DNA of 64,000 nt from NCBI RefSeq assembly GCF_000522985.1, contig NZ_CP007130.1:620001-684000 (forward strand), in the 5' to 3' direction. The notes beneath the pieces are model-generated. The model had not been told where the DNA came from. It saw only the letters and a program-made list of their open reading frames with translations, and did not search any database. Made by a program: the position numbers and the translations under genes. The stretch is from Gemmatirosa kalamazoonensis (GTDB lineage Bacteria > Gemmatimonadota > Gemmatimonadetes > Gemmatimonadales > Gemmatimonadaceae). The stretch's first letter is position 1, and each line of letters opens with the position of its first letter. Shown here piece by piece: positions 33,805-58,331 of the stretch.

Positions 33805-35184
33805 TCAGTAGTCGGGGTTCTGCACCAGCGCGCCCGACGCCGCGGCGGTGATGTCGCGGAGCGGGATGGGGAAGAGCGCGTAGCCCGGCTTGGCGAGCGA
33901 CTTCACGGTGCCCGCGAGGCCCTGGCGGACCAGATCGGGCCACCGGTCCCCCTCGAGCGCGAGCTCGATGCGCCGCTCCTTCGTGATGGCCGCGAGGACG
34001 TCGGCCTGCGTCTTCACGTCGGTGCCGAGCACATGCGGCCTCAGGCCGGCGCGCACGCGCACCTTGTCGTACTCGGCCACGGCCGCGGCGAGGTTGTTCT
34101 GCCGCGCGAGCACCTCCGCCTTGATGAGCACCAGCTCCGCGAGCCGGATGACGTGCGGATGCTCGGTGCCTGCGGTGGTCGGGTACTTCACGCCCTGCAG
34201 GCGCGTCGTGCTGTTCGGTCGGTTGATGACCGTCGACGCCTTGCGCAGGTCGCCAGCCTCGTACGCCGAGTTGAGGTTGGCCGACGGCTCCGCCTCGTGG
34301 CGGCCGGCGAACAGCCAGTAGTACCCGAGGCTGTTCGACTGCGACGCGATGAACGACACGCGGAAGATGTCCTCCGACGTGTTGTCGCCCGTCGCGGTGA
34401 ACAGGCTGGCGTACGGCACGGTCAGCGTGTCGCGGCCGGCGAGCACCGTGTTGGCCGCGTCGAGCGCCCCCTGCAGGTCGGTGGCGTTAGGCGCCGACGG
34501 CGTGCCGGCGAACGCCCGATAGAACAGCACGCGCGAGCGCAGCGCGGTGACCGCGGTGCGCGTGGCCCGGCGCGTGTTCGTGTTGCTCGCCGGGATGAGC
34601 TGCGCCGCCTTGTCGAGGTCGGAGAGGATGAGCGCGTACACCTGCGCGACCGGCGTGCGGGTGTACTGCTCGGCCTCGCTCGCGCTCGCGACGGGCGTCG
34701 TGGGCGTGGGGACGGCGCCCCAGAACTTCACGAGCACGCTGTAGCTCAGCGCGCGAAGAAAGTACGCCTCGCCCTGGAGCTGGCTCTTCGTGGCGTCGGG
34801 GATCGAGGCGATCTTGGGGACCGTCGCCAGCACGACGTTGTCGCGGTCGATCTGGCGGTACAGCCCCGTCCACATGTTGGTGACCTCGGTGTTGTCGGCA
34901 GCGATCTGGTTGCTGACGATGTTGCCGAGGAACTGGTAGGTGCCGGCCCAGCGGCCGTTGTCCGACGGGAGATCGCCGAGCAGCGGGATGTCGAGGCCGT
35001 ACATGCCGCTGCTCTCCAGCGCGCCGTACGCGCCGTTCAGCGCGGCCTGCGCGGTGGCGAGGTCGGTGACCGCGTTCTCGGCGGAGACGCGGTCGAAGGG
35101 CTCAGTGTGCAGCGTCTTGTCGCAGGCGGCCGTCGCGAGCACGGCGGCGGCGAGCGCGACGCCCCGGATGTATGCGAGTCGCAT
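33805..35184 (-). CDS. SusD/RagB-family surface lipoprotein
   Basis: A 459-residue lipoprotein with signal peptide and lipobox (LATAACDK, Cys21). It has the SusD features: N-terminal helical AQAALNGAYGALE region, TPR-like helices and the C-terminal ITKERRIELALEGDRWPDLVR motif common to RagB/SusD proteins. It should be the substrate-capturing lid over the SusC pore encoded 44 bases upstream. Pairing with a cyanophycinase and a trypsin-like protease suggests a peptide or polypeptide ligand rather than a glycan; that is inference. Confidence 0.93.
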   Translation of the reverse strand: MRLAYIRGVALAAAVLATAACDKTLHTEPFDRVSAENAVTDLATAQAALNGAYGALESSGMYGLDIPLLGDLPSDNGRWAGTYQFLGNIVSNQIAADNTEVTNMWTGLYRQIDRDNVVLATVPKIASIPDATKSQLQGEAYFLRALSYSVLVKFWGAVPTPTTPVASASEAEQYTRTPVAQVYALILSDLDKAAQLIPASNTNTRRATRTAVTALRSRVLFYRAFAGTPSAPNATDLQGALDAANTVLAGRDTLTVPYASLFTATGDNTSEDIFRVSFIASQSNSLGYYWLFAGRHEAEPSANLNSAYEAGDLRKASTVINRPNSTTRLQGVKYPTTAGTEHPHVIRLAELVLIKAEVLARQNNLAAAVAEYDKVRVRAGLRPHVLGTDVKTQADVLAAITKERRIELALEGDRWPDLVRQGLAGTVKSLAKPGYALFPIPLRDITAAASGALVQNPDY

Positions 35185-35228
35185 GATGCGTTGGGCTCTC
35201 GTGTGGGAAGTCAACGTGAAGCGGGCGC

Positions 35229-38200
35229 TCACCATCCGGCCGACAGGCCGAGGCTGAACGTGCGGGCCAGCGGGTAGGCGTAGTAGTCGACGCCCGTGAT
35301 GACGTTCGCCGCGGCGCCGCTGCTGCTCACGTCGGGGTTGTAGCCCGAGTACTTCGTCCACGTCTTCAGATTGCGACCCGACACGTACAGTCGCGCGTTG
35401 TCGAGCCCCGTCGACGTCACGAGCCGCGTCGGGAGCTTCCAGCCGAGCGTGATCTCGCCGAGGCGGACGAACGAGCCGTCCTCGATCATGCGGCTCGACA
35501 TGAGGCGCGCGCCGGAGGTGCCGTCGTAGCTGAAGCGCGGCTCGTCGGTGATGTCGCCCGGCTTCTGCCAGCGCGTCAGCGTGAGGGTGCTCTTGTTGTC
35601 GTAGCTGTAGCCACCGTCGTCGGTGAAGATGCGCATCATGTTGAAGACCTTGTTGCCCTGGCTGAACTGCAGGAAGCCGCGCAGGTCGAGGGTCTTCCAC
35701 GTGAGCACGTTCGTGAAGCCGCCGTAGTACTTCGGCTGCGGCGAGCCGACGAACATGAGGTCCGCCGACGTGGGGCTCTTCGTCTCGCCGCCCGACGCCT
35801 TCGCGAACACGACGTTGCCGTCCTGCGGATCGATGCGCAGGACCTTGTACATGTAGAACTCGCCGAGCGGGTGACCGACCGCGGCCGCCGACGTGACGCG
35901 GCTGCTGACGGTGAACGTGACCGGCTGCCCGCCGTAGAGCTCCGTGACGGTGTTCCGGTTCCAGGTCACGTTGAGGTCCGACGTCCAGCCGAGGCCTAAC
36001 GATCCGCGCGCGCCGTCGAGGTTCACGGTGTGGAGGCCGAGGTCGACGCCGCGGTTGCGGATGCTGCCGATGTTGTCCCAGATGGACGAGTAGCCGCTCG
36101 TCACGGGAATCGGCCGTTGCACGAGCAGGTCGCTCGTGTTGCGCTCGTACCAGTCGGCGATGACGGAGATGCGGCCGTCGAAGAAGCCGAAGTCGGCCCC
36201 GATGTCGGTCTCCTTCGTCGTCTCCCACTTCAGGTTCGCGTTGCCGAGCTGCGTGCCGGCGACGCCGGGGGCACCCGCGTACGGCGCGCCGGCCGCGAGG
36301 TTGAGCGACGCGTAGTCGCCGATCCCCTGGTTGCCGGTGACGCCGAACGAGCCGCGCAGCTTCAGCGTGCCGATGCGCGCGAGGCCGGAGAGCGCCGGCT
36401 CGTCGGTCACCACCCAGCCGACGGACGCGGCGGGGAAGATGCCGTAGCGGTTGTCCTTGCCGAAGCGCGACGAGCCGTCCGCGCGCAGGCTGGCGCCCAC
36501 GAGGTAGCGGTTGGCGAGCGTCCAGTTCGCGCGCGTGAAGAACGAGACGAGGTTGTTGTCGCTGCGGCTGCCGTCCCACGACGTGACGTTCGTCGCGTTG
36601 CGCACATAAGTCGTGAAGCCGGTGGGGAAGCCCTCGCCGCGCAGGTAGCTCAGGTAGCGGCGGTTGTACTCGAGGCTCGAGCCGCCGGTGATGGAGAGGT
36701 TGTTGTTCGCCGCGCGCAGCGGCTCGGCGGTGAAGAAGCCCTCCATCACGTACTTGTCGATCGCGGTATGGCCGTCGCGGCCGATGCCGTTGAGGCTCTT
36801 CGCCGACGTCGCGTCGACCTTCGGCGAGCCCCACTGCAGCTCGTCGATGTTGAAGACGTCGGCGCCGACGCGCCCGGTGAGCGAGAAGCCGTCGGCGACG
36901 CTGTACTTCGCCTCGGCGTGGCCGAGCGCGCGGAGCGTCTGGTAGTTGTTCTGGTTGTACCGGGCGATCGCGACCGGGTTGGAGTACTTGAGCCCCTCCG
37001 TCGTGCCGCCGAATCCGAAGCTGTTGCCGAGGATCGGCCGCATCGGCTGCATGCCGATGGCGTTGGTCACCACGCCGTCGAGGCTCAGGTCACCCGGGAT
37101 ACGGTCGTCGTCCTCGCGCGTGAGGCCGAGCGACGTGGTGAGGAGCAGCCGGTCGCCGGCGTGCAGATCGAGGTTCACGCGGCCCGCCTGCCGGCGGTAG
37201 CCGGAGCCGATGACGATGCCGCGCTGGTCGAAGTTCGAGCCGGACAGGAAGTAGCGGAACCGATCGGAGCCGCCGCTCATGGCGAGCTGCGCGTCGCTGA
37301 CGGCGGCGCGGCGGAACACCGCGTCCTGCCAGTCGAAGCTCTGCGCGTCGTCCTTGCCGGGCACGAAGTCGTAGTCCGACACCGCGTAGCCGTCGTTCTT
37401 CGCGCTCTCGTTCATCAGCTCGACGTACTGCTGCGCGTTCAGCAGGCCGATCTTCTTCTCCACCCGCTGCGTGCCGCCGTACGCGTTCAGCGAGAAGCGC
37501 ATGCGCCCCGCGGTGCCGCGCTTCGTGGTGATGAGGATGACGCCGTTGGATCCGCGCGAGCCGTAGATGGCCGCGGCCGCGGCGTCCTTCAGCACGTCGA
37601 TGGACGCGATCTCGTCGGGGTTGAGCGCCGAGATCGCGGTCTGGTCCTGGCCGCTCTGCGAGATCTGCTCGAACGCGCCCTGCGTGATCGGGATGCCGTC
37701 GACGACGTAGAGCGGCTGGTTGCCCGCGTTCAGCGACGCGGGGCCGCGCACACGCACCGACACGCCGCTCCCCGGCTCGCCGGAGTTCTGCACGACCTGC
37801 ACGCCGGCGATCTTGCCCTGCAGCGCGTTGTCGAGCGCGGCGACGGGCGCGTTGCGGATCGCCGTGGAGTCGACGGACGCGATGGCGCTCGTCACCGTGG
37901 CGCGGCTCGACGTGCCGTAGCCGACGGACACCACCGTGGAGAGCACGGTGGCGACGGGCGTGATGGTCACGTTCACGGTGGTGACGCCGTTCGCGTCGAC
38001 CGCGACGCGACGCTCGGCGGACGCGTAGCCGATGCGCTGCACGCGGAGCAGCGCATCGCCGGCGGGGACGCCGCGCACGACGTAGATGCCGGCGTCGTTC
38101 GTGACGGCGCCCCGCGCGCCGCTGCCGACGGTCACCTGCGCCCCGATGACGGGTCGCTGCGTGGCCGAGTCGGTGACGGTCCCACGGACGATCCCGGTGG

Positions 38201-38279
38201 CCTGTGCGGCGGCCTGCCGCGCGAGTCCGGAGCCGAGCAGCACAACGAGCGCGACGTGCCAGGGAGTGTTGCGCCTCAT
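35229..38279 (-). CDS. SusC/RagA-family TonB-dependent outer-membrane transporter
   Basis: A 1,016-residue outer-membrane transporter. Signal peptide to about residue 25 (ending QAAAQA), then a carboxypeptidase-regulatory-like domain (GIVRGTVTDSATQRPVIGA), the plug with LQGKIAGVQVVQNSG and LYVVDGIPI, the SusC signature SIDVLKDAAAAAIYGSRGSNGVI, and a beta-barrel ending in an aromatic residue (GLSAGW). It partners with the SusD protein and takes up oligomers by TonB energy. ATG 38279 is chosen because the signal peptide begins there. Lies 38 bases after the cyanophycinase gene. Confidence 0.95.
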   Translation of the reverse strand: MRRNTPWHVALVVLLGSGLARQAAAQATGIVRGTVTDSATQRPVIGAQVTVGSGARGAVTNDAGIYVVRGVPAGDALLRVQRIGYASAERRVAVDANGVTTVNVTITPVATVLSTVVSVGYGTSSRATVTSAIASVDSTAIRNAPVAALDNALQGKIAGVQVVQNSGEPGSGVSVRVRGPASLNAGNQPLYVVDGIPITQGAFEQISQSGQDQTAISALNPDEIASIDVLKDAAAAAIYGSRGSNGVILITTKRGTAGRMRFSLNAYGGTQRVEKKIGLLNAQQYVELMNESAKNDGYAVSDYDFVPGKDDAQSFDWQDAVFRRAAVSDAQLAMSGGSDRFRYFLSGSNFDQRGIVIGSGYRRQAGRVNLDLHAGDRLLLTTSLGLTREDDDRIPGDLSLDGVVTNAIGMQPMRPILGNSFGFGGTTEGLKYSNPVAIARYNQNNYQTLRALGHAEAKYSVADGFSLTGRVGADVFNIDELQWGSPKVDATSAKSLNGIGRDGHTAIDKYVMEGFFTAEPLRAANNNLSITGGSSLEYNRRYLSYLRGEGFPTGFTTYVRNATNVTSWDGSRSDNNLVSFFTRANWTLANRYLVGASLRADGSSRFGKDNRYGIFPAASVGWVVTDEPALSGLARIGTLKLRGSFGVTGNQGIGDYASLNLAAGAPYAGAPGVAGTQLGNANLKWETTKETDIGADFGFFDGRISVIADWYERNTSDLLVQRPIPVTSGYSSIWDNIGSIRNRGVDLGLHTVNLDGARGSLGLGWTSDLNVTWNRNTVTELYGGQPVTFTVSSRVTSAAAVGHPLGEFYMYKVLRIDPQDGNVVFAKASGGETKSPTSADLMFVGSPQPKYYGGFTNVLTWKTLDLRGFLQFSQGNKVFNMMRIFTDDGGYSYDNKSTLTLTRWQKPGDITDEPRFSYDGTSGARLMSSRMIEDGSFVRLGEITLGWKLPTRLVTSTGLDNARLYVSGRNLKTWTKYSGYNPDVSSSGAAANVITGVDYYAYPLARTFSLGLSAGW

Positions 38280-38317
38280 GCGGATCCTCGGAGGAGGGTG
38301 GGGGTGGGGGAGGGTGC

Positions 38318-39208
38318 CTAACGCGTGGCGGGAGGGAGCGTCGCCTTGCCGGTGCGCGGGTCGAACGTGCTGCCGGCGGGGAGCACGTGGAGCCGGATGC
38401 CGCTGGCGCCGAGGCGCGCCGGCGATGCGGCGGGCGTGACGGCGGCGTCGCGGGCGTCGAACACGATCGCCGCGCTCGCGCCCTCGATGGTCCATCGCCC
38501 GTCGGGGTCGACGCGCAGCGCGGTGCCCTCGTCGATGCCGACGCCTAACAGCGTTGGGCGCTCGAGCACGACGCTGAGCAGGCGGTTGTTGCGCTGGCGG
38601 CGGAGGAAGTGCTGGTCGACGACGGCGCCGTGCAGGAAGCCGAGGCCGGGCACGATCTCGATGCTGCGGCGCGCGACGCGCTGCCAGCCGGTGCCCGACG
38701 TGTCGACGGTGCCGTCGGCGCGGAACTGGTTGCCGGTGAGCATGGAGTCGCTCATGATCGCCGCGCCGGCGGAGGTGCCGCCGACGACGGCGCCGGCCTG
38801 GTAGCGCGCGTGGATCGCGTGCAGGAGCTTCGATCCGGCGAGCGCCCGCGCGAGGCGCGCCTGGTCGCCGCCGGGAAACCAGATGCCGGTGGCGTTCGCG
38901 ACGAGACGCACGATGGAGTCGGCGTCGGCCTGGTCGCGGGTGACGTTCACGACGAACGCGTCCGCGCCGAGGGAGTCGAGCTGCAGCTCCTTCTCCGGCC
39001 CGGTGGACGGATCGCCGCTCGCCATCGGGAGGATGGCGATGCGGGCCTTCCCGGGGCCGCCGGCGAGGGCGACGAAGTGGTCGACGAGGGCCTTGGGCTG
39101 CGTGCCGCCGCCGACGATGAACAGGGTGCCGCGGGGGGACTGCGCGCCCGCGGCACCGGCGGTGGCGAGCAGCAATGCGAGCGCGGGGCGGAGACGAGCG
39201 AGGCGCAT
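38318..39208 (-). CDS. Cyanophycinase-like serine peptidase (S51), secreted
   Basis: A 296-residue exported S51 peptidase. A signal peptide (MRLARLRPALALLLATAGA) leads to the mature protein at about residue 23. The nucleophile elbow GGTSAGAAIMSD, the strand FIVGGGTQPKAL and GIWFPGGDQ fit cyanophycinases, which cleave the beta-Asp-Arg polymer cyanophycin or related isoaspartyl peptides. Being exported, it would act on external polymer. It heads the cyanophycinase-SusC-SusD-trypsin set, so the TonB system may import the released dipeptides. The stop codon TAG overlaps one GCCTAAC/GTTAGGC motif. Other S51 activities (aspartyl dipeptidase) cannot be excluded. Confidence 0.87.
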   Translation of the reverse strand: MRLARLRPALALLLATAGAAGAQSPRGTLFIVGGGTQPKALVDHFVALAGGPGKARIAILPMASGDPSTGPEKELQLDSLGADAFVVNVTRDQADADSIVRLVANATGIWFPGGDQARLARALAGSKLLHAIHARYQAGAVVGGTSAGAAIMSDSMLTGNQFRADGTVDTSGTGWQRVARRSIEIVPGLGFLHGAVVDQHFLRRQRNNRLLSVVLERPTLLGVGIDEGTALRVDPDGRWTIEGASAAIVFDARDAAVTPAASPARLGASGIRLHVLPAGSTFDPRTGKATLPPATR

Positions 39209-39383
39209 CACGTCTGACTGGAGGGGAAGGGTGGGCGATCTGGGGATACGCCCGGCAGGGAGATGCTGTTGGGACCCGAACTGCGCGAGGGGGGTCACCG
39301 CGTTCGGGACGAGTGGCGCGCCGAGGCGTGCGGCATAGACTCGGGGACGTCTCGTTCCCGCCGACCACCGACCGGAGCCTCCG

Positions 39384-40133
39384 ATGGACGACCGCCGTCT
39401 CGCGCGCCGCGTGCGCGTGCTCGAGCTGTACTCCGCCGTCAGCACGTGCGTGCTGCTGGTGCTCGCGCTCACCGCGTTCCGCCGGCAGCCGGGGCGCGCG
39501 CGGTTCACGGAGATGGACGTGGAGCGGATCAACGTCGTGGAGCCGGACGGGAAGCTGCGCATGGTGATCGCGAACCGTCCGCGCTCGATCGGGCCGATCT
39601 ACAAGGGAAAGGAGTTCGGCTACAAGGGCGGCAACCGGCCCGGGATCATCTTCTTCAACGACGAGGGCTCGGAGAACGGAGGGCTCGGCTTCTCGGGCGC
39701 GCGCGGCACGGACGGGACGTATCGGGCGTCGAGCCAGCTCGCGTTCGACCAGTACGACTCGGACCAGATCCTCTATCTCTCCTACACGGACCAGAACGGG
39801 GTGCGGCGCACCGGCCTAACGGTGGCCGACCGCGCGGAGGCGAACATCTTCGACCTCGTGCAGGCGCGCGACTCGCTGCAGAAGCTTCCCGCGAGCCCGG
39901 CGCGCGACTCGGCGCTGCAGGCGCTGGTGGCGCCGCGGAACGGCGTGCCGCTCATGGCGCAGCGCGTGTTCCTCGGGCGCGACCCGGCGAAGAGCGCGGT
40001 GGTGAACCTCTCCGACCCGCAGGGGAAGCCGCGGCTCCGGCTCGTGGTCGACTCGACGGGGCGGGCGCGCGTGGAGTTCCTCGGCGCCGACGGGCGGGTG
40101 ACGTACAGCCTCCCCGACTCGGCGCGGCGTTAG
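39384..40133 (+). CDS. Membrane-anchored protein of unknown function
   Basis: A 249-residue protein with one N-terminal membrane segment (LYSAVSTCVLLVLALTAF) and a soluble part outside. The body holds three beta-rich stretches of similar form, each of the type INVVEPDGKLRMVIAN, LAFDQYDSDQILYLSYTD and LSDPQGKPRLRLVVD, suggesting a repeated beta-meander. I do not recognise the family. It is read away from the cyanophycinase gene (175-base divergent spacer) and is convergent with the racemase gene across a large hairpin. Its stop TAG lies in a GTTAGGC motif. Confidence 0.75.
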   Translation: MDDRRLARRVRVLELYSAVSTCVLLVLALTAFRRQPGRARFTEMDVERINVVEPDGKLRMVIANRPRSIGPIYKGKEFGYKGGNRPGIIFFNDEGSENGGLGFSGARGTDGTYRASSQLAFDQYDSDQILYLSYTDQNGVRRTGLTVADRAEANIFDLVQARDSLQKLPASPARDSALQALVAPRNGVPLMAQRVFLGRDPAKSAVVNLSDPQGKPRLRLVVDSTGRARVEFLGADGRVTYSLPDSARR

Positions 40134-40140
40134 GCGTGGC

Positions 40141-40229
40141 GTTCACGGCTCCACGTACGAGTGTTCATGGGACTGAAGAAGGACTGTCCTTCTTCAGTCC
40201 TGCGAGAACACGTACGTGGAGCCGTGAAC
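40141..40229. repeat. Tandem-armed hairpin, CACGTACG/ACTGAAG class, between convergent genes
   Basis: Outer arms 40141-40166 and 40206-40229 pair (GTTCACGGCTCCACGTACG and complement), and an inner stem of GGACTGAAGAAGGAC pairs with its complement around a 2-base tip. It fills the gap between two convergent genes and could be a bidirectional terminator. Shares ends and inner unit with 46844-46978 and 63310-63450, but with only one inner unit per arm. Confidence 0.9.
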
Positions 40230-40237
40230 GGCGGACA

Positions 40238-41356
40238 TCAGGCGCCTAACGTCACGCACCGCACGGTGAGATCCTCGATGCGATCGACGTCGACGGTCAC
40301 GCCGAGGCCGGCGCGCTCGAGGGGGACGCGGACGCGGCCCTCGGCGTCCATGGTCCACTCGGGGTCGACGACGTCGCGGGCCCAGTAGCGCGCGCTCGGG
40401 CTGAGGTCTCCGGGCTTCGTGAAGTTCGGCAGCGACGCGAGCGCCACGTTGTGCGCGCGACCGACGCCGCTCTCCAGCATGCCGCCGCACCACACCGGCA
40501 CACCGTGCGCGGCGCAAAAGTCGTGGATGGCGAGCGACGGCCCGAAGCCGCCGACGCGTCCCGGCTTGATGTTCACGATGCGGCCGGCGCCGAGCGCCAC
40601 CATGTCGCGCGCGCGGTCGAGCGAGGTGATGGACTCGTCGAGGCAGACGGGCGTCGTGAGGCGCTTCTGCAGCGAGGCGTGCTGGAGGAGGTCGTCCCAC
40701 GCGAGCGGCTGCTCGATCATCATGAGGCCGAACGCGTCGAGCTGCTGCAGCACGTCGGCCTGGGCGAGCGTGTACGCGTTGTTCGCGTCGGCCATGAGCG
40801 GCGCGTCGGGAAGTGCCTCGCGCACCGCGCGCACGTACGCGACGTCGCGCCCCGGCTCGATCTTCAGCTTCACCTTGCGGTAGCCCTCGGCCACCGCGGC
40901 CGCGGCGCGCTGGACGAGCGCGTCGGGGCTCGCCTGGATGCCGAGCGAGATGCCGGTCTCGATGCAGTCGCGGGTGCCGCCGAGCAGGCGGGCGAGCGGC
41001 ACGCCCTCCTTCTCCGCGGCGAGCGCCCAGCAGCCCATCTCCACCGCGGCCTTCGGCATGAGGTGGCCGCGGAAGTCGCGCTCGAGCGTCGGGAAGACGT
41101 CGCGCGGATGGGCGAACGTCGCACCGAGCACGCGCGGCGCGATCCACTCGGCGATCGCGAGCCAGCTCGTGTCGATGGTGTCGGGGCTGTAGATCGGTGT
41201 GTCGAACGCGACGCACTCGCTCCACGTGCGCGCGCCGTCGGCGTCGTGGAGCTCGAGCAGCAGGATGCGGCGGTCGGCGACGACGCCGGAGGAGATGCGG
41301 AACGGCTCCTTCAGTGGGAGACGGATCTCTCTCAGCGTGATTCGGATGCAGAGCAT
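40238..41356 (-). CDS. Enolase-superfamily o-succinylbenzoate synthase / N-succinylamino acid racemase-like
   Basis: A 372-residue member of the muconate-lactonising subgroup of the enolase superfamily. The general bases KLKIEPG (K-x-K) and NIKPGRVGG, and the metal ligands in MADANNAY, MIEQPL and CLDESI are all in place. The family holds both OSBS (menaquinone synthesis) and N-succinylamino acid racemases (NSAR). No men genes are nearby, while a GNAT-like acyltransferase lies directly upstream in the same direction. That pairing is known from organisms that turn D-amino acids into L-amino acids by N-succinylation, racemisation and hydrolysis, so NSAR activity is favoured. Both activities can coexist in one enzyme. 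Confidence 0.85.
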   Translation of the reverse strand: MLCIRITLREIRLPLKEPFRISSGVVADRRILLLELHDADGARTWSECVAFDTPIYSPDTIDTSWLAIAEWIAPRVLGATFAHPRDVFPTLERDFRGHLMPKAAVEMGCWALAAEKEGVPLARLLGGTRDCIETGISLGIQASPDALVQRAAAAVAEGYRKVKLKIEPGRDVAYVRAVREALPDAPLMADANNAYTLAQADVLQQLDAFGLMMIEQPLAWDDLLQHASLQKRLTTPVCLDESITSLDRARDMVALGAGRIVNIKPGRVGGFGPSLAIHDFCAAHGVPVWCGGMLESGVGRAHNVALASLPNFTKPGDLSPSARYWARDVVDPEWTMDAEGRVRVPLERAGLGVTVDVDRIEDLTVRCVTLGA

Positions 41357-41377
41357 GGGATGTGCGCGGTGGATGCT

Positions 41378-41451
41378 CACGCGGAGCCGCGGAGAGCGCG
41401 GAGAACGACCACACGAGCCGGTGTCCTCCGCGTTCTCCGCGCCTCCGCGTG
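41378..41451. repeat. Tandem-armed hairpin, CCGCGGAG class, between two linked genes
   Basis: Arms made of GCGGAG/CGCGGAG units pair imperfectly across a loop of about 15 bases (around 41407-41422). It sits in the 98-base spacer between the acyltransferase stop and the racemase start, so it may lower downstream expression or form an attenuator. Same class as 58227-58300. Confidence 0.85.
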
Positions 41452-41454
41452 CGA

Positions 41455-42309
41455 TCAGTCGTGCGCCGCGAGAACGTAGTGCGGCAGCGTAGTCGCGTCG
41501 CCGCGCGCGAACGTGGCGACCTCGTAGCCGCGGCCGAGGTAGGCGAGGAGGGCCTCGCGGGTGACGTCGCGCCAGACGGCGCGAAGGTCGTAGGGCAGCG
41601 CCTCGAGGTCGCGCGGGACGGCGACGTGGACGACCGGCGCGTCGGGGAGCGGCGCGAGCATGGGGACGCCGCGGTCGTCGGTGGGGTTCACGAGGATCCC
41701 GGGGCGGTCGGGGACCCGCGCGTCGCCGTCGAGCGCGAGGAGGTCCCACTTCGCGACGAAGCGGTCGGTGGCGAGGCGGCCGTGGAGCGGGCTGCCGGTA
41801 TCGTCGCCGTACATGTTCGGCACGTACTCCGACGCGCGGGCGCCGAGGCGCGCGAGGTTGAGGTGCGCGTTGCGGGCGACGAGCGGGTCGAACGTCCAGT
41901 ACATGGTCCGGGCGCCGACGCCGAGGACGAGCTCGCGCTGGTAGCGCTTGAGGCGCTCGCCGAGGTGGCCGCCGCGCGCCTCGGGACGGACGGCGAGGAG
42001 GTCGGACCAGTGGACGAGCGCGCCGTTCTCGACGCCGGTGATGCCGAAGACGAAGCCGAGCATACGGCCGTCCGGCCGGTCGTCGGTGGGCTCGGCGAAC
42101 GCGGCGGCGCAGACGCCGCCGAGCTTCTGGGAGACGAGGAGGATGGCGGCGGGCACGAGCTCGCGGAACCCGACGCCCCAGGTCTCCTCCTGGATCGCGA
42201 TGCACTCGTGGTACTCGGCCAGCGAGGCGACGCGGCGGATGGTGACCCCGTCGACGCCCGTGGCGGGCGAAGCGGACGGGGGGGCCAGGTCAGTCGTCTG
42301 AGGGATCAT
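41455..42309 (-). CDS. GNAT-fold acyltransferase-like protein (putative D-amino acid N-succinyltransferase partner)
   Basis: A 284-residue protein with a GNAT-like core: VTIRRVASLAEYHECIAIQEETWG, then LGFVFGITGVENGALVHWSDLLAVRPEARGG (strand 4 and the acyl-CoA loop RPEARGGHLG), and the conserved block TMYWTFDPLVARNAHLNLARLGARA. It resembles the uncharacterised acetyltransferase group often found beside NSAR genes. In Geobacillus the neighbouring enzyme was shown to succinylate D-amino acids. The third pathway enzyme, a succinyl-amino acid hydrolase, is not seen in this window. Start ATG 42309 (MIPQTT) precedes the fold by about 20 residues. Confidence 0.78.
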   Translation of the reverse strand: MIPQTTDLAPPSASPATGVDGVTIRRVASLAEYHECIAIQEETWGVGFRELVPAAILLVSQKLGGVCAAAFAEPTDDRPDGRMLGFVFGITGVENGALVHWSDLLAVRPEARGGHLGERLKRYQRELVLGVGARTMYWTFDPLVARNAHLNLARLGARASEYVPNMYGDDTGSPLHGRLATDRFVAKWDLLALDGDARVPDRPGILVNPTDDRGVPMLAPLPDAPVVHVAVPRDLEALPYDLRAVWRDVTREALLAYLGRGYEVATFARGDATTLPHYVLAAHD

Positions 42310-42482: not shown

Positions 42483-45400
42483 ATGCCACCCACGGCTGCC
42501 CGACGCCTCGCCCCCGCCACGCCCCCGATCCTCGGCGGCTGGCTCCTCCTCGTGACGCTCGCCCTCGGCGCGCCCGACCTGCGCGCCCAGCCGACGAGCG
42601 GCCCCACCGGCGTCGTGGCCGGCACCGTCACCGACGGCGTCGCCCACACCCCACTCACCGGCGTCGCCGTCGCGCTCGACGGCACCCGGTTCGGCGCCGC
42701 CACCGGCGCCGACGGCCGCTACCGGATCACCGGCGTGCCCGCGGGGACCTACACCGCCATCGCCCGGCGCATCGGCTACAACCCCACGCGGCTGTCGGTC
42801 ACCGTGACCGCGGGGCGCGAGGCGACCGCCGACTTCGGCCTGCAGGCGAGCGCCATCGCCCTCGATCAGGTCGTCATCTCCGGCACCGCCGGCGAGACCC
42901 AGCGCCGCGAAGTGGGCAACGCGGTGGCGACGATCGACGCCGCGACGGCGCTGCAGCAGTCGGCGGCGCCGAACGTGGCGAGCCTGCTGAACGCGCGCGC
43001 CCCGGGCGTCGCCGTCAGGCAGCGCACCGGCCGGCTCGGCGCCGGGCCGACGATCGAGGTGCGCGGGCGCTCGTCGCTGTCGCTCGAGAACAGCCCGCTC
43101 ATCTACGTCGACGGCGTGCGGGTGAACAACCAGACGAGCTCCGGCCCGCAGGCGGTCGCCGGGCGACTCGGCGGGCAGGGCTCGCAGGTGGGCGGCCGAC
43201 TGAACGACATCAACCCCGACGACATCGAGTCGATCGAGGTGATCAAGGGCCCGGCCGCGGCGACCATCTACGGCACCGAGGCGGCGAACGGCGTCATCCA
43301 GATCATCACGAAGAAGGGCGCCGCCGGCGCCGCGCCGCAGATCTCGGCGCAGGTGGAGGAAGGCTCGCTCGAGTTCGCGAACGCCGTCGACCGCGTGCAG
43401 ACGAACTACTTCAAGGATCCGACGAGCGGTCAGATCGTCACGTGGAACGGCCTGCAGCAGGAGGCCGACAGCGGCCGGCCGATCTACAAGACGGGCCAGA
43501 CGCGGAAGTTCACCGGCTCGCTCAGCGGCGGCCGCGACGCGCTGCGCTACTACCTCGGCTCGACGTACGAGAACGACCTCGGCATCGAGCCGAACAACTC
43601 GCTGCGCCAGTTCTCGCTGCACACGAACCTGAACTCGTCGGTGCGGCCGAGCACCGAGCTGGCGATGAGCGTGAACTACGTCGCCGGCGACACGCACCTC
43701 GGCGCCGACTACGGCGCGTCGCCGCTGTTGGGCGCGCAGGTCGGGCACCGGCTGCTGTTCGCGGGCACGCGCGGCTTCTTCGCCGTGCCGCCGGAAGTGC
43801 CGCAGCAGCTCTACGACAACTCGACGCGGGTGGACCGTTTCACCGGCAGCGCGACGATCACGAACCGGCCGGCGTCGTGGTTCACGCAGCGCGCGATCGT
43901 GGGGCTCGACTACGCGGGGAGCGACGAGCGCGCGCTGGAGCGGTTCGCGCCGCCCGAGATCGCGCGCTACCTGACGGCGGCCGCCGCCGGCGGCGCGATC
44001 GGCCAGACGCTGCGCCACAACTCGGTGTTCACGGGCGACTACAACGGCTCGGCGCGCGTGAGCCTCACGAGCGCGCTCTCGTCGAAGTCGTCGGTGGGCG
44101 GGCAGTTCTACAAGACGGCGCTGAACTCGAGCTTCCTCGGCGGCACGGCGTTCCCGGCGCCGGGCGTGGACATCGTCTCCGGCACGACGGCGCCGGTCGC
44201 GTCGTCGCAGAGCGAGACGATCAACACGACGATCGGCGCGTACGCCGAGCAGCAGTTCGGGTGGCACGACCGACTGTTCCTCTCCGGCGCGCTGCGCGTG
44301 GACAACAACAGCGCGTTCGGCGAGGACTTCAAGTGGGTCACCTACCCGAAGGTGAGCGCGAGCTGGGTGGTGAACGAGGAGCCGTTCTGGGAGCGCTGGC
44401 GGAACGCGGTGAACACGCTGCGGCTGCGCGCCGCGTACGGCGAGTCGGGACGGCAGCCGGCGGCGTTCTCCGCGCTGCGCACGTTCGCGGCGACGACGGG
44501 GCCGGGCGGGTCGAGCGCGGTGACGCCGAACTCGTTAGGCAACCCGGACCTCAAGCCGGAGCGCGGCAAGGAGGTCGAGCTCGGGTTCGAGGCCGGACTC
44601 TACAACCGCCTGACGCTCGACTTCACGTACTACAACAAGAAGACGTACGACGAGATCGTGCAGCAGCCGGTGGCCCCGTCGAGCGGCTTCCCGGGGACGC
44701 AGTACCGCAACCTGGGCCAGGTCGACAACAAGGGCGTCGAGCTGAGCGCGAACCTGCGCGCGGTGGCGCGGCGCACGGTGTCGTGGGACATCAACGCGAA
44801 CGTCGCGACGAACAAGGACGTCATCCGCGACCTCGGCGGGCTGCCGACGATCATCGCGTCGTACGGCGCGGCGAACGTGGTGGGCTATCCGATCGGCGGC
44901 ATCTTCGTGCGCCACGTGATCTCCGCCGAGCGCAACGCGACGACGGGGCAGGCGACGAACATCCTGTGCGAGGGGCCTAACGGCACCGGCGTGGCCTGCG
45001 CGACGGCGCCGTTCGTCTTCTGGGGCACGCCGACGCCGAAGGTGACGGGGGCGGTGAGCTCCACGGTGACGCTCTGGCAGCGACTGTCGCTGTACGGGCT
45101 GGCCGACTTCCGGCGCGGCAACAAGCTCCAGAACTCGGTGGAGCTGCTGCGGTGCACGGGCGCCGTGGGCGGCGCGCTCTGCCGCGCGAACTACTACCCG
45201 CAGGAGTACGACCCGCTCTACCTCGCGGAGACGAACATCAACGCGGTCGCCCTCGGCACGGTCGACCAGTACATCCAGGACGCCGGCTTCACGAAGCTGC
45301 GCGAGATCTCGGCGACGTACACGTTCCCCGAGCGGATCACGCGCGCGCGCACGTCGCTGACGATCGCGGGGCGCAACCTGTACACGTGGACGAAGTACCG

Positions 45401-45515
45401 GGGCATCGACCCCGAGTCGAACATCAACAACGCGGCGACGACGACGGCGACGCTCGACCAGGCCGTGACGCCGCCGCTCCGCAGCTTCGTCGCCACCGTG
45501 CGCGTCACGTGGTAA
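42483..45515 (+). CDS. SusC/RagA-family TonB-dependent outer-membrane transporter
   Basis: A 1,010-residue transporter. Signal peptide to about residue 37 (ending APDLRAQP), carboxypeptidase-regulatory-like domain (GVVAGTVTDGVAHTPLTGVAV), plug with LLNARAPGVAVRQRTG and PLIYVDGVRVNN, the signature SIEVIKGPAAATIYGTEAANGVI, and a barrel ending VATVRVTW. It is the first gene of a long plus-strand series (SusC, SusD, then peptidases and serine hydrolases), preceded by a GntR-type palindrome. It should import the products made by those hydrolases. It differs strongly from the SusC at 35229-38279. Confidence 0.95.
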   Translation: MPPTAARRLAPATPPILGGWLLLVTLALGAPDLRAQPTSGPTGVVAGTVTDGVAHTPLTGVAVALDGTRFGAATGADGRYRITGVPAGTYTAIARRIGYNPTRLSVTVTAGREATADFGLQASAIALDQVVISGTAGETQRREVGNAVATIDAATALQQSAAPNVASLLNARAPGVAVRQRTGRLGAGPTIEVRGRSSLSLENSPLIYVDGVRVNNQTSSGPQAVAGRLGGQGSQVGGRLNDINPDDIESIEVIKGPAAATIYGTEAANGVIQIITKKGAAGAAPQISAQVEEGSLEFANAVDRVQTNYFKDPTSGQIVTWNGLQQEADSGRPIYKTGQTRKFTGSLSGGRDALRYYLGSTYENDLGIEPNNSLRQFSLHTNLNSSVRPSTELAMSVNYVAGDTHLGADYGASPLLGAQVGHRLLFAGTRGFFAVPPEVPQQLYDNSTRVDRFTGSATITNRPASWFTQRAIVGLDYAGSDERALERFAPPEIARYLTAAAAGGAIGQTLRHNSVFTGDYNGSARVSLTSALSSKSSVGGQFYKTALNSSFLGGTAFPAPGVDIVSGTTAPVASSQSETINTTIGAYAEQQFGWHDRLFLSGALRVDNNSAFGEDFKWVTYPKVSASWVVNEEPFWERWRNAVNTLRLRAAYGESGRQPAAFSALRTFAATTGPGGSSAVTPNSLGNPDLKPERGKEVELGFEAGLYNRLTLDFTYYNKKTYDEIVQQPVAPSSGFPGTQYRNLGQVDNKGVELSANLRAVARRTVSWDINANVATNKDVIRDLGGLPTIIASYGAANVVGYPIGGIFVRHVISAERNATTGQATNILCEGPNGTGVACATAPFVFWGTPTPKVTGAVSSTVTLWQRLSLYGLADFRRGNKLQNSVELLRCTGAVGGALCRANYYPQEYDPLYLAETNINAVALGTVDQYIQDAGFTKLREISATYTFPERITRARTSLTIAGRNLYTWTKYRGIDPESNINNAATTTATLDQAVTPPLRSFVATVRVTW

Positions 45516-45528
45516 CCAGGTGAGCCCC

Positions 45529-46827
45529 ATGAGAACCCACCACATCGAGCGGGCGCTCGCGCTCCTGGCCACGTTAGGCGTCGTGGCGTGCAAGGACGTG
45601 ACGGCGCTGAAGCAGACGAATCCCGGGCAGGTCTCGGCGGCGACGCTGTACGTGCCGCAGAACGCACAGCTGCTGGTGAACGGCGCGATCGCCGACTTCG
45701 AGTGCGCGTACACGCGCTACGTCGTCGGGAGCGGGCTGCTCGTCGACGAGCTGTCGAACGCGATCGGCTCGACGGCGAACTTCGACTACGACGCACGCCG
45801 GCTGACGACGAACGCGTCGTACGGCACGGGCGCCTGCGGCAACAACCAGCAGCCACCGATCTACACGACGCTGTCGACGGCGCGCGGCTCGGCGGACACG
45901 GTGCTGGCGCGGCTGAAGGAGTGGACGGACGCGCAGATGCCGCCCGGGGTGAACCGCACGAAGCTCATCGGCCAGGCGGCGGCGTACGCGGGGTACAGCC
46001 TGGTGCTGCTCGGCGAGGGGATGTGCACGGCGGCGATCAACCTCGGGCCGGAGCTGACGCCGGACCAGGTGTTCGCGGAAGCGAAGGCGCGCTTCGACGA
46101 GGCGGTGACGGCGGCGACGGCGGCGAACGACCAGGCGACGCTGAACCTCGCGCTGCTCGGCCGCGCGCGCACGCTGCTCGACATGAAGCAGCCGGCGACG
46201 GCGGCGGCGGACGCGGCGAAGATCCCGGCGTCGTTCATCGCGACGACGGGCACGGACAACGTGAACGTGCGCCGACAGAACTTCTCGTTCCTCGCCGTGA
46301 ACCAGAACAACTGGGCGACGGTGGATCCGAGCTTCCGCGGCCTCACGCTGCCTAACGGGGCCGCGGATCCGCGCGTGGCGGTGACGAACACGACCAAGGC
46401 CGGCACGGCGCAGGGCTCGGTGATCTGGACGCCGGACAAGTACCCGACGCTGACGACGGTGATGCCGATCGCGCGGTGGGCGGAGGCGCAGCTCATCATC
46501 GCCGAGGCGCGCGCGGCGGCGGGCGACATTCCGGGGGCGGTGGCGGCGATCAACGCGGTGCGCGCCACGCGCACGGGCGTGCCGGCGTACGACGCGACCG
46601 GACAGACGGCGGCGCAGGTCCAGGCGCAGATCGTGGAGGAGCGCCGCCGCGAGCTGTTCCTCGAGGGGCACCGCCTCGGCGACATCCGCCGGCTGGGGCT
46701 CGCGCTCTCGCCCGCCGCGGGCACGGCGTACGCGGGCGGCGGCGGTACGTACGGCACGCTGACGTGCTTCCCGCTGCCGGACGTGGAGCGCGTGAACAAC
46801 CCGAACATCGCGGGCAAGACGGGCTGA
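45529..46827 (+). CDS. SusD-family surface lipoprotein
   Basis: A 432-residue lipoprotein with signal peptide and lipobox-like LGVVACKD (Cys near 22). It has RagB/SusD-type helical repeats and the conserved C-terminal IVEERRRELFLEGHRLGDIRRLG motif. ATG 45529 is preferred to GTG 45520 because it begins directly at the signal peptide. It starts 13 bases after the SusC stop and is followed by a large hairpin repeat. It is the likely ligand-binding partner of the SusC upstream. Confidence 0.92.
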   Translation: MRTHHIERALALLATLGVVACKDVTALKQTNPGQVSAATLYVPQNAQLLVNGAIADFECAYTRYVVGSGLLVDELSNAIGSTANFDYDARRLTTNASYGTGACGNNQQPPIYTTLSTARGSADTVLARLKEWTDAQMPPGVNRTKLIGQAAAYAGYSLVLLGEGMCTAAINLGPELTPDQVFAEAKARFDEAVTAATAANDQATLNLALLGRARTLLDMKQPATAAADAAKIPASFIATTGTDNVNVRRQNFSFLAVNQNNWATVDPSFRGLTLPNGAADPRVAVTNTTKAGTAQGSVIWTPDKYPTLTTVMPIARWAEAQLIIAEARAAAGDIPGAVAAINAVRATRTGVPAYDATGQTAAQVQAQIVEERRRELFLEGHRLGDIRRLGLALSPAAGTAYAGGGGTYGTLTCFPLPDVERVNNPNIAGKTG

Positions 46828-46843
46828 GACGCGCCGTGCACGA

Positions 46844-46978
46844 CTCCACGTACGATTTCCTGTAGGACCGACGCAGGACTGAGGAAGGACAACCGCAAGG
46901 ACCAACACATTGCTGGTGTTTCCTTCTTCAGTCCTTCGTCAGTCCTCCTTCAGTCCCACGACAACCACGTACGTGGAG
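46844..46978. repeat. Tandem-armed hairpin, CACGTACG/ACTGAAG class, between susD and S9 peptidase
   Basis: The ends CTCCACGT (46844) and ACGTGGAG (46978) pair; inside, about three units near GGACTGAAGAAGGAC in each arm pair with their complements around an AACACATTGCTGGTGTT loop that is itself self-complementary. It fills the 169-base spacer and could attenuate the downstream gene. Confidence 0.88.
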
Positions 46979-46996
46979 CTCTGCAGAGGAGAGACG

Positions 46997-49228
46997 ATGC
47001 GAGCAATGACATCGCGAGCCGCAGCGACGCTTCTCACCCTCGCGGCCCTCGCGCCTAACGCCTACGCCCAGCCGAAGGCCGCGCCGACGATCGACGCGTT
47101 CCTGAGCGCGGGGTTCCCGTCGGAGCTGGTCGCGGCGCGGAAGGCGGATCGGATCGCGTGGCTGGCGTGGGAGAAGGGGAAGCGGAACGTGTACGCCGCA
47201 TCGGCGCCGGGGTTCGCGCCGCGGCGGCTCACGCGGTTCCTCGACGACGACGGCATCGAGCTGTCCGACCTGCAGATCGCCGACGACGGCGCGACGGTGG
47301 TGTTCGTGCGCGGGAGCGATCCGAACCGCGTGGGCTGGATCGCGAACCCGACGGGCGATCCGCGCGGGCAGGAGCGGGCGATCTGGGCGGCGCGCACCGA
47401 CGGCACCGGCGCCTGGCGCATCTCGGCAGGCACGACGCCGGCCGTGTCGCCCGACGGCCGGTGGGTGGCGTTCGCGCGCGACAGCGCGCTGTTCGTGGTG
47501 CGCGTGGCGCCGGGCGCGACGAGCGCGGTGGACCGCGGCGAGCGGCCGCTCGTGCGCGCGTGGGGGCGCAACCTCTCGCCGCGCTGGTCGCCCGACGGAT
47601 CCAAGCTCGCGTTCGTGAGCGACCGCACCGACCACGCGTTCGTCGGCATCTACGACGCGACGCGGCACACGGTGACGTACATGGCGCCGAGCGTGGACCG
47701 CGACGCGAGCCCGACGTGGTCGCCCGACGGCAAGCGCGTCGCGTTCATTCGGCGGCCGGGGCTCGCGTTCGGGCAGCAGGCGCACGACGCGACGGGCTCG
47801 TTGGGCGAGCCGCCCGGTCCGGCGTGGGCCATCTCGCAGCGCGCGCGCATCGGCGCCGACACCGCGGGCGCGACGGCGAAGTGGGCGCGCACGCCGGGGC
47901 TCGCGCGCGCCGCGTTCGCCGGCGGCTACACGCTGTCGTTCTGGGTGGCCGACGCGACGACGGGCGACGGACACGAGGTGTGGCACAACGCCCCGAACGA
48001 CCGCGCGTTCCCGAGCGTGGCGTCGATCCAGTGGGCGGGCGACCACCTCGTGTTCGCGGCCGAGCCGGAGGAGTGGACGCGGGTGTACGCGGTGAGCGCC
48101 GCGGGCGGCAGCGACCGCCCGGTGGAGCTGACGCCCGGCACCGGCGCCGTCGAATCGTTAGGCCTGTCGCCCGACGGGCGCACGCTGTACTACGCGACGA
48201 ACGCGGGCGACATCGACCGGCGGCACGTGTGGAAGGTGCCGACCGCCGGCGGCGAGGCGGTGCAGCTCACGCGCGGCGAGGAGATCGAGATGTACCCGGC
48301 GCCGCTCGGCTCCGCGCGGCAGGTCGCGATGCTGACGTCGAGCGCGACGCGGCCCTTCTCGGTCGCCCTGATGCCGGCTTCGGGCGGCGCGCCGCGCGTG
48401 ATCTATCCGACGTTAGGCAGGGAGTTCCCGACCGAGGCGCACGTGACGCCGCAGGCCGTGCTCGTGAAGTCGGACGACGGGCTCGAGATCCACGACCAGC
48501 TCTTCCTGCCGAAGGACCTGAAGCCCGGCGAGCGGCGGCCCGCGATCGTGTTCGTGCACGGCGGCCCGGTGCGGCAGATGCTGCTCGGCTACCACTACAT
48601 GGACTTCTACCACATGGCCTACGCCGTCAACGAATGGCTGGCGAGCCAGGGGTACGTCGTCCTGTCGGTGAACTACCGGAGCGGCATCGGCTACGGCAAG
48701 GCGTTCCGCCAGGCGCCCAACGTGGGCGGGCGCGGCAACGCCGAGTACAAGGACGTGCTCGCGGCGGGGAAGTACCTGCAGTCGCGCCCGGACGTGGACC
48801 CGACGCGCGTGGGGATCTGGGGGCTGTCGTACGGCGGCGTGCTCACGGCGCAGGCGCTGGCGCGCAACTCCGACCTGTTCGCCGCCGGCGTGGACATGGC
48901 GGGCGTGCACCTGTGGGGCAGCACGCTCGACTCGACCGACCTGTCGTACAAGTCGTCGGCGATCGCGGCGATCGACGGGTGGAAGTCGCCGGTGCTGCTG
49001 TGGCACGGCGACGACGACCGCAACGTGCAGTTCTCGCAGACGACGGGGCTCGTGCAGCTGCTGCGCGCGCACAACGTGCCGTTCGAGCTGATCGTGAACC
49101 CGGACGACACGCACGAGACGCTGCTGTACTCGCGGTGGCTGACGACGTACGCGCGGATGCAGGACTTCCTGCGGCGGAACCTGTGGGACCGGAAGACGGC
49201 GACGACGTCGTCGACGGGGACGCGGTGA
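46997..49228 (+). CDS. S9-family prolyl oligopeptidase-like serine peptidase, secreted
   Basis: A 743-residue exported peptidase. Signal peptide to about residue 25 (ending NAYAQ), a seven-bladed WD40/PD40-like propeller (repeated SPDGR/SPDGK motifs), then an alpha/beta hydrolase domain with nucleophile GLSYGG, Asp in HGDDDRNV and His in DDTHETL. This is the domain order of acylaminoacyl- and dipeptidyl-peptidases. ATG 46997 has AGAGGAGAG four bases upstream, which decides the start. It is translationally coupled to the next gene (GTGA overlap at 49225-49228). It probably cuts oligopeptides in the periplasm. Confidence 0.93.
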   Translation: MRAMTSRAAATLLTLAALAPNAYAQPKAAPTIDAFLSAGFPSELVAARKADRIAWLAWEKGKRNVYAASAPGFAPRRLTRFLDDDGIELSDLQIADDGATVVFVRGSDPNRVGWIANPTGDPRGQERAIWAARTDGTGAWRISAGTTPAVSPDGRWVAFARDSALFVVRVAPGATSAVDRGERPLVRAWGRNLSPRWSPDGSKLAFVSDRTDHAFVGIYDATRHTVTYMAPSVDRDASPTWSPDGKRVAFIRRPGLAFGQQAHDATGSLGEPPGPAWAISQRARIGADTAGATAKWARTPGLARAAFAGGYTLSFWVADATTGDGHEVWHNAPNDRAFPSVASIQWAGDHLVFAAEPEEWTRVYAVSAAGGSDRPVELTPGTGAVESLGLSPDGRTLYYATNAGDIDRRHVWKVPTAGGEAVQLTRGEEIEMYPAPLGSARQVAMLTSSATRPFSVALMPASGGAPRVIYPTLGREFPTEAHVTPQAVLVKSDDGLEIHDQLFLPKDLKPGERRPAIVFVHGGPVRQMLLGYHYMDFYHMAYAVNEWLASQGYVVLSVNYRSGIGYGKAFRQAPNVGGRGNAEYKDVLAAGKYLQSRPDVDPTRVGIWGLSYGGVLTAQALARNSDLFAAGVDMAGVHLWGSTLDSTDLSYKSSAIAAIDGWKSPVLLWHGDDDRNVQFSQTTGLVQLLRAHNVPFELIVNPDDTHETLLYSRWLTTYARMQDFLRRNLWDRKTATTSSTGTR

Positions 49229-54856: not shown

Positions 54857-54893
54857 GGGTGGGGACAGGATGCCTGGCTCTTCTTTCTTCTTT

Positions 54894-54983
54894 CGACAGG
54901 ATGAACAGGACGGACAGGATGAACACCAACAACAACTGCTCTTTCGTTGGTGTTCATCCTGTCCGTCCTGTTCATCCTGTCCG
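54894..54983. repeat. Tandem-armed hairpin, GACAGGATGAAC class, between two hydrolase genes
   Basis: Arms of three units (GACAGGATGAACAG, GACGGACAGGATGAACACC) pair with their complements around a loop at about 54931-54945. It occupies most of the 154-base spacer before the next start and is unusually AT-rich for this window. Confidence 0.9.
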
Positions 54984-55010
54984 AGACAACACAGCAACCG
55001 GGGCTCTTCG

Positions 55011-58226: not shown

Positions 58227-58300
58227 ACGCGGAGCCGCGGAGGACGCGGAGACCACCAACGAGTTTGGCCGTTTCTCCGCGGCCTCCGCGGCCTCCGTGT
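58227..58300. repeat. Tandem-armed hairpin, CCGCGGAG class, after the GntR gene
   Basis: The left arm (58227-58252) has GCGGAG units and the right arm (58271-58300) has CTCCGCGG units with an AACGAG loop. It lies in the 124-base spacer between the GntR stop and the Tricorn-like start. Same class as 41378-41451. Confidence 0.87.
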
Positions 58301-58331
58301 GAGATCCGGACAGGCCCACCTCACATCCGTC

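Follow-up and report, generated by a model that had tools for sequence, protein, structure and literature searches.

We analyzed a 64,000-nucleotide stretch of the Gemmatirosa kalamazoonensis genome (the window; positions 620001 to 684000 of C4, our label for the replicon that holds it), taken from a genome totaling 7,479,215 bases in four contigs; coordinates below are those of the window unless prefixed by C4. Replicons of 5,312, 1,106, 1,041 and 21 kb have been reported for strain KBS708 (PMC3974934), contigs of 5,311,527, 1,106,233 and 1,040,503 bases are present in the genome, and the gene pair considered here lies on the plasmid of about 1.04 Mb. A search of a plasmid collection, from which the window's own record was possibly left out, returned no DNA nearly identical to the window. 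The pair occupies the reverse strand and consists of NSAR1, a predicted N-succinylamino acid racemase of the NSAR/o-succinylbenzoate synthase (OSBS) family of enolases (40238 to 41356; 372 residues from the ATG at 41356), and, 98 bp upstream of it, a GNAT-fold acyltransferase of 284 residues (41455 to 42309) that we predict to be a D-amino acid N-succinyltransferase. A preliminary description of the window had placed an enolase of this type next to a GNAT-like acyltransferase, and both open reading frames are indeed found there.

The acyltransferase-NSAR pair and its surroundings

NSAR1 scored 325.3 bits against TIGR01928, for which the curated cut-off is 200.65, and a sequence search of the PDB returned N-acylamino acid racemases as the closest solved structures (E = 2e-96), which come from Deinococcus, Thermus and Amycolatopsis. 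Mechanistically, NSAR/OSBS enzymes employ two lysines and a metal-held substrate, as set out in PMC8142540. The residues expected for such chemistry in the enolase superfamily, namely, a KxK motif and an opposite lysine as the two bases and D/E/D metal ligands, are all present in NSAR1, and K162, K164, D189, E214, D239, K263 and R266 do not vary among the 83 aligned sequences (numbered on the 371-residue reading that starts at 41353; partial tblastn matches of fewer than 330 residues were left out of the alignment). R266 is the arginine at position K+3, a marker of racemase activity. The enzymes of this family are promiscuous and their substrate is not fixed by sequence alone; the score of NSAR1 against the model for DgcA, an N-acetyl-D-Glu racemase (NF042940), was 106.5 bits and fell below the cut-off of 400.

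The acyltransferase yielded no match of its own in Pfam or NCBIfam at an E value of ≤0.001 (PF13508 gave 14.3 bits, against a gathering score of 27) and matched PDB sequences weakly; its identity was settled by fold. An AlphaFold2 model with a pLDDT of 93.4 retrieved GNAT structures in Foldseek (best E value, 2e-8; TM score on the target, 0.70) and in VIA (Z up to 16.8, rmsd of 1.7 over 149 aligned residues), and on this model the protein is of the GNAT fold. PF00583 (Acetyltransf_1) matches 37 of the 41 members of its family at an E value of ≤0.1, with a best value of 1.8e-7, and the GNAT proteins that adjoin menC in Bacillales are homologous to it over the full length. Second GNAT paralogues adjoin SusD and S15 genes in three other genomes of the phylum (contigs G168:C151, G063:C9 and G199:C67); no NSAR match was found on the latter two contigs.

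Two inverted repeats flank NSAR1. Between it and the acyltransferase gene, positions 41378 to 41451 hold a 29-nt repeat (90% complementary, with a 16-nt loop) that might act as an attenuator or represent a REP-like palindrome. On the other side, between NSAR1 and a convergent open reading frame (39384 to 40133), a repeat with 45-nt arms of 87% complementarity spans 40140 to 40230 and is likely to serve as a shared terminator and to be a copy of a genome-wide element. This element, TCCACGTACG...GGACTGA(AGAAGGACTGA), is intergenic and is often arranged in inverted pairs with a spacing of about 100 bp; it is found in the window at 40140 to 40230, 46845, 46961 to 46977 and 63314, and, with overlapping matches included, the genome contains 92 forward and 167 reverse instances of its pattern, whereas the reversed-pattern control has none. 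It may be a REP/MITE-like element or a terminator. To the left of the pair, a SusC/SusD set occupies 33805 to 39368 on the reverse strand, and a cyanophycinase-like S51 peptidase is encoded on the same strand at 38318 to 39253 (TIGR02069, 168 bits; cut-off, 126.6).

A second such set lies on the forward strand and is divergent from the acyltransferase gene: a SusC/RagA-like TonB-dependent outer-membrane transporter (42483 to 45515), relatives of which occur in other GNAT loci, followed by a SusD/RagB-like lipoprotein (45520 to 46827; PF07980, 60.6 bits). Downstream of SusD, and on the same strand, is a run of genes for secreted-type hydrolases. It begins with an S9 prolyl-oligopeptidase/DPP-IV-like enzyme (46910 to 49228; PF00326, 118.7 bits; PF00930, 60.8 bits) and an S12 (PF00144) serine hydrolase with a DUF3471 domain (S12 a; 49543 to 50982, from domain start to stop codon), the translation of which has a hydrophobic leader; continues with an S15/CocE-NonD family hydrolase (51096 to 52841; PF02129, 197.6 bits; TIGR00976, 269 bits against 66.3), S12 b (53081 to 54856, again from domain start to stop codon; PF00144, 215 bits) and S12 c, fused to an S33-like alpha/beta hydrolase (54870 to 57485; PF00144, 229 bits; PF12146, 74.6 bits); and ends with a tricorn-type protease (58299 to 61721) that contains PD40, PDZ_Tricorn and S41 domains and S12 d, which also carries DUF3471 (61723 to 63291; PF00144, 240 bits). 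Relatives of the CocE/NonD and S12 proteins include enzymes that act on beta-lactams or amino acid esters.

A distant M20 hydrolase and a second NSAR gene

The preliminary description had noted that the third enzyme of the pathway was missing locally and had proposed a search for an M20-type hydrolase elsewhere. All 34 M20 matches of the genome lie outside the window, so that the first statement stands for the locus; it does not hold for the cell, for the search located an M20 amidohydrolase (C4:491847 to 493064; 337 bits to TIGR01891, cut-off 153.75) directly after a second NSAR gene, NSAR2 (C4:493070 to 494173, reverse strand), about 166 kb from the pair. Searches of the genome gave one GNAT gene of this kind, two NSAR genes and one such M20 gene; the three-enzyme set is complete on one replicon.

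NSAR1 and NSAR2 are 85 to 86% identical and form sisters in the tree with a support of 1.0. Their identity is patchy, with 293 of 300 bases shared in alignment columns 301 to 600 and 117 of 120 in columns 901 to 1020; the other full alignment blocks share 43 to 56 of 60 bases. In G158, the nearest relative, a GNAT-NSAR pair is followed after 12 kb by a set of GNAT, NSAR and M20 genes. Outside the tracts of 95 to 98% identity, NSAR1 shares 78 of 96 and 67 of 80 residues with the NSAR of the G158 pair, against 76 of 100 and 64 of 80 with NSAR2. The sister placement favors a simple recent duplication, which we nevertheless rejected because outside the tracts NSAR1 is somewhat nearer to the pair copy of G158, although the difference is modest; the simplest reading of the alignment is therefore that two old NSAR paralogues have been partly homogenized by gene conversion and that a second GNAT gene was lost in this genome.

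Linkage and co-occurrence in relatives

The distribution of the three genes was surveyed in 200 sampled Gemmatimonadota genomes (G numbers; thresholds of E ≤ 1e-70 for NSAR and E ≤ 1e-85 for this M20), among them the sampled members of the host's family, Gemmatimonadaceae, and in a wider collection of GNAT loci (L numbers). Across the phylum sample, GNAT was found in 117 genomes, NSAR in 124 and this M20 in 60; the corresponding numbers in Gemmatimonadaceae were 46, 48 and 44. All 46 GNAT-bearing genomes of the family also carried NSAR, at a distance of no more than 300 bp in 45 and of 359 bp in the remaining one, and 44 had this M20. No family genome with this M20 was without GNAT, and the enzyme was found in none of at least 23 further sampled Gemmatimonadaceae genomes that gave no GNAT match. 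The NSAR and M20 genes were at most 300 bp apart in 39 of 44 genomes, our own being counted through NSAR2. Elsewhere M20 adjoined GNAT instead of NSAR, with a gap of at most 301 bp (G055 and G079), lay 8 and 21 kb away (G019 and G048, respectively) or was on another contig (G174), and no such M20 was found in two of the 46 GNAT-bearing genomes (G111 and G170).

In addition, 29 other GNAT loci were taken with 1.5-kb flanks; NSAR was present in 28, the remaining locus being truncated by the end of the sequence, and this M20, in many cases likewise incomplete there, in 24. In the collection scan, which comprised the best 80 of 583 loci, NSAR adjoined GNAT in 75, so that the pair is not a product of chance, and the same M20 was present in 32 of the 80. 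An unrelated M20 of the ArgE/DapE/carboxypeptidase type preceded GNAT in 15 other collection loci (2 of the 15 were scanned), and 33 of the 80 showed neither kind within reach, in some because the contig ends. In nine loci an extra gene with weak FAD/NAD-binding matches only lies between GNAT and NSAR. The GNAT-menC link was also found in all eight plasmid records that were opened, of 41 with a match, from Sulfitobacter, Pseudosulfitobacter, Deinococcus, Arthrobacter, Priestia and Lysinibacillus, and thus spans plasmids of Bacillota, Deinococcota, Alphaproteobacteria and Actinomycetota; an M20-type hydrolase lay within the opened stretch in four of the eight (Deinococcus ficus, Arthrobacter, Lysinibacillus and Priestia, the last annotated only as an amidohydrolase), and an amino acid ABC transporter is linked to the locus in Sulfitobacter.

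Some further arrangements were observed in these loci. In other Gemmatimonadota lineages, genes for GlcD/GlcF-like oxidases and an ArgE/DapE-type M20 precede GNAT in conserved order (L107:88-4944, L117:626-5971, L093, L099, L106, L124, L125, L127, L132 and L133). An Amidohydro_3 protein is encoded near the trio in 14 loci (for example, L069:4204-5988, reverse strand), in many of them divergently and just upstream of GNAT; the one member that was scanned gave 201 bits to NF006560, under the cut-off of 340, and the protein could be another amidohydrolase of the N-acyl-amino acid type. Two contigs labeled Gammaproteobacteria (L100 and L102) share nearly the whole gene layout of a Gemmatimonadota contig (L087), at the same coordinates, and are probably from misbinned MAGs.

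The importer and the hydrolases are associated with the pathway genes in part of these genomes. Relatives of SusC, 38 to 65% identical, are divergent from GNAT at six more loci (L146, L066, L063 = L149, L129, L098 and L078). Homologues of SusD with at least 50% identity were present, among the matches listed, in 12 other genomes of the 200, in 8 of which (G158, G168, G063, G025, G033, G199, G008 and G048) they lie within 15 kb of GNAT; the chance value for this linkage assumes genomes of 4.2 Mb with two GNAT genes each. Two of the others are on separate contigs of fragmented assemblies (G082 and G142), and two are not near GNAT (G089, 73% identical; G107, 54%). SusD proteins below 50% identity (43%), not included in the 8 of 12, are also near GNAT in G110 and G194 among the matches listed. 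In most genomes of the family the trio lies apart from this SusD, and the link of importer and hydrolases to the pathway, as judged from gene positions, is lineage limited.

Proteins related to the S12 and S15 hydrolases, most of them 43 to 76% identical, recur near GNAT, NSAR or M20 in G158, G019, G048, G008 and other loci; relatives of S12 d stand beside NSAR or M20 in L146, L148, L150 and L151 and beside GNAT in L120 and L140, the two loci in which tricorn relatives are also near trio genes. Within 15 kb of GNAT, eight genomes had 13 S12 genes among the matches listed, against 1.0 expected (totals per genome were taken from the table and near-GNAT counts from the matches listed), and six of the eight had at least one (P = 6e-5; 5 of 7 without our own genome, P = 4e-4); these genomes are not a random sample, five having been taken for the placement of their M20 genes, with S12 genes near their loci seen beforehand, and two added. 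No S12 gene among the matches listed was near GNAT in G101 and G029. Of the 14 best S15 matches from other genomes, 7 were within about 15 kb of GNAT (G019, G168, G025, G063, G199, G110 and G194), 5 were away from it (G107, G026, G104, G089 and G189) and 2 came from fragmented assemblies in which GNAT is on a different contig (G082 and G142); below these 14, the matches in G158 and G048 were linked to GNAT and most others were not. The preliminary description had remarked on hydrolases beside the pair whose relatives act on D-residue peptides, and of that remark the gene linkage holds, for the S12 proteins.

A proposed route from D- to L-amino acids

We consider it probable that the GNAT-NSAR pair constitutes two-thirds of a cytoplasmic pathway for the irreversible conversion of D- to L-amino acids. 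The acyltransferase would transfer an acyl group to a D-amino acid, with succinyl-CoA as the most likely donor; either NSAR1 or NSAR2 would racemize the N-acyl amino acid by a two-base 1,1-proton transfer through a metal-bound enolate; and the M20 enzyme beside NSAR2 would deacylate the L form and so pull the reaction. The three-gene unit is here split between two sites of one replicon, both of which hold an NSAR gene, and the local pair lies where breakdown products of imported peptides could feed the pathway, with SusC/SusD divergent from it and the hydrolase run nearby. Of the readings weighed, the D- to L-amino acid conversion proposed in the preliminary description is the best supported, given the invariant active-site residues, the M20 gene on the same replicon, which tracks GNAT in the family, and the operon arrangement in relatives.

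TIGR01928 is labeled o-succinylbenzoate synthase in the database, MenD is over the cut-off in 64 of the 200 phylum genomes and common in other classes, and in some MenD genomes (G017) NSAR is far from GNAT, all of which would suit a housekeeping enzyme of menaquinone synthesis (MenC). The best MenD match in our genome, however, reached 74 bits where the cut-off is 244, whereas MqnC, of the futalosine route to menaquinone, was over its cut-off (466 bits) and the neighboring gene is MqnE-like (427 bits, just under 434.55). With no MenD over its cut-off and with MqnC present, an OSBS role is not needed, and we rejected it for this genome; of the other men genes requiring an OSBS, which by the preliminary description would have spoken against an amino acid pathway, MenD was looked for and not found. 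In the family, moreover, MenD is matched at E ≤ 1e-50 in only 2 of the 48 NSAR-bearing genomes (G190 and G195). Identification of the enolase as MenC is extremely improbable. The 64 MenD genomes belong nearly all to other families, and some of the NSAR proteins there may be true OSBS enzymes.

It is unlikely that the acyltransferase serves instead to detoxify D-amino acids or amino acid-like antibiotics by acylation, with NSAR and M20 acting separately: phosphinothricin and tabtoxin-resistance acetyltransferases are among its fold neighbors in Foldseek and VIA, and the second GNAT genes of G063 and G199 stand by SusD and S15 without an NSAR match on the contig, but in the host's family GNAT, NSAR and M20 occur together and side by side almost without exception, which argues against such independence. 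The same cycle might employ another acyl group, such as N-acetyl, or be devoted to one special substrate, for example, a D-amino acid derived from a beta-lactam or nonribosomal peptide. Related enzymes racemize both N-acetyl and N-succinyl amino acids (PMC8142540), and the CocE/NonD and S12 neighbors, with relatives active on beta-lactams or amino acid esters, are consistent with a special substrate; conservation over several phyla argues for a general one, and we give this alternative little credence. Racemization is reversible, and the direction of the cycle would be set by stereopreferences, so that D-amino acids could in principle be made from the L forms for wall editing or biofilm dispersal; the linked importers, degradative hydrolases and, in Sulfitobacter, the amino acid ABC transporter point to uptake and use, and we regard this direction as very unlikely.

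The conversion pathway that we favor is of a known type. The N-succinylamino acid racemase pathway of Geobacillus kaustophilus (Sakai et al. 2006, Biochemistry 45:4455) is reported to convert D- to L-amino acids irreversibly and likewise to have a GNAT acyltransferase, an NSAR/OSBS enolase and an M20 hydrolase as neighbors; the Bacillales GNAT proteins beside menC are, as noted, full-length homologues of ours. The arrangement that defines it recurs here as GNAT linked to NSAR in the window, in the collection and in the family, and as an M20 gene that follows NSAR2, elsewhere on the replicon that carries the local pair. In contrast to Geobacillus, Gemmatirosa has the trio at two separate sites of a large plasmid with two NSAR genes, and the GNAT site neighbors a SusC/SusD importer together with serine hydrolases. 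The DgcN-DgcA system likewise N-acylates a D-amino acid, racemizes the product with an enolase superfamily enzyme and deacylates it, the same three-step logic as that of the Gemmatirosa trio; DgcN, however, is not known to be a GNAT, and the DgcA score of NSAR1 (106 bits against 400) also sets the two apart. That system is presented as a newly identified irreversible racemization pathway for acidic D-amino acids in PMC12363236. SusCD-type importers, including the peptide-linked RagAB of Porphyromonas gingivalis, resemble the Gemmatirosa set in pairing SusC with SusD, and the latter adjoins predicted peptidases; it differs in being linked to a pathway of the D-amino acid type and not to polysaccharide enzymes. 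A literature search that covered few subscription journals found no account of the near-fixed gene order in GNAT-bearing Gemmatimonadaceae, of the split with gene conversion or of the tie to SusC/SusD and hydrolases, and no publication on the GNAT-NSAR-M20 trio in Gemmatimonadota.

More tentatively, and with rather less confidence than we place in the pathway itself, we suggest that Gemmatimonadaceae carry D-peptide utilization loci, a counterpart of polysaccharide utilization loci. SusC/SusD would import D-residue peptides, such as wall peptides and nonribosomal peptides, the secreted S12, S15, S9 and tricorn hydrolases would free D-amino acids and the trio would convert these to L-amino acids; gene conversion would maintain the similarity of the two old NSAR paralogues in Gemmatirosa, since the two serve one pathway. 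The results also suggest that many "menC/o-succinylbenzoate synthase" annotations in Gemmatimonadaceae are wrong. Soil and sea contain a large pool of D-amino acids that is used slowly. Should the trio function as we predict, a general route to their use would be open to a soil phylum that is common and poorly represented in culture, and the association with SusC/SusD points to imported D-residue peptides as a source that can be tested.
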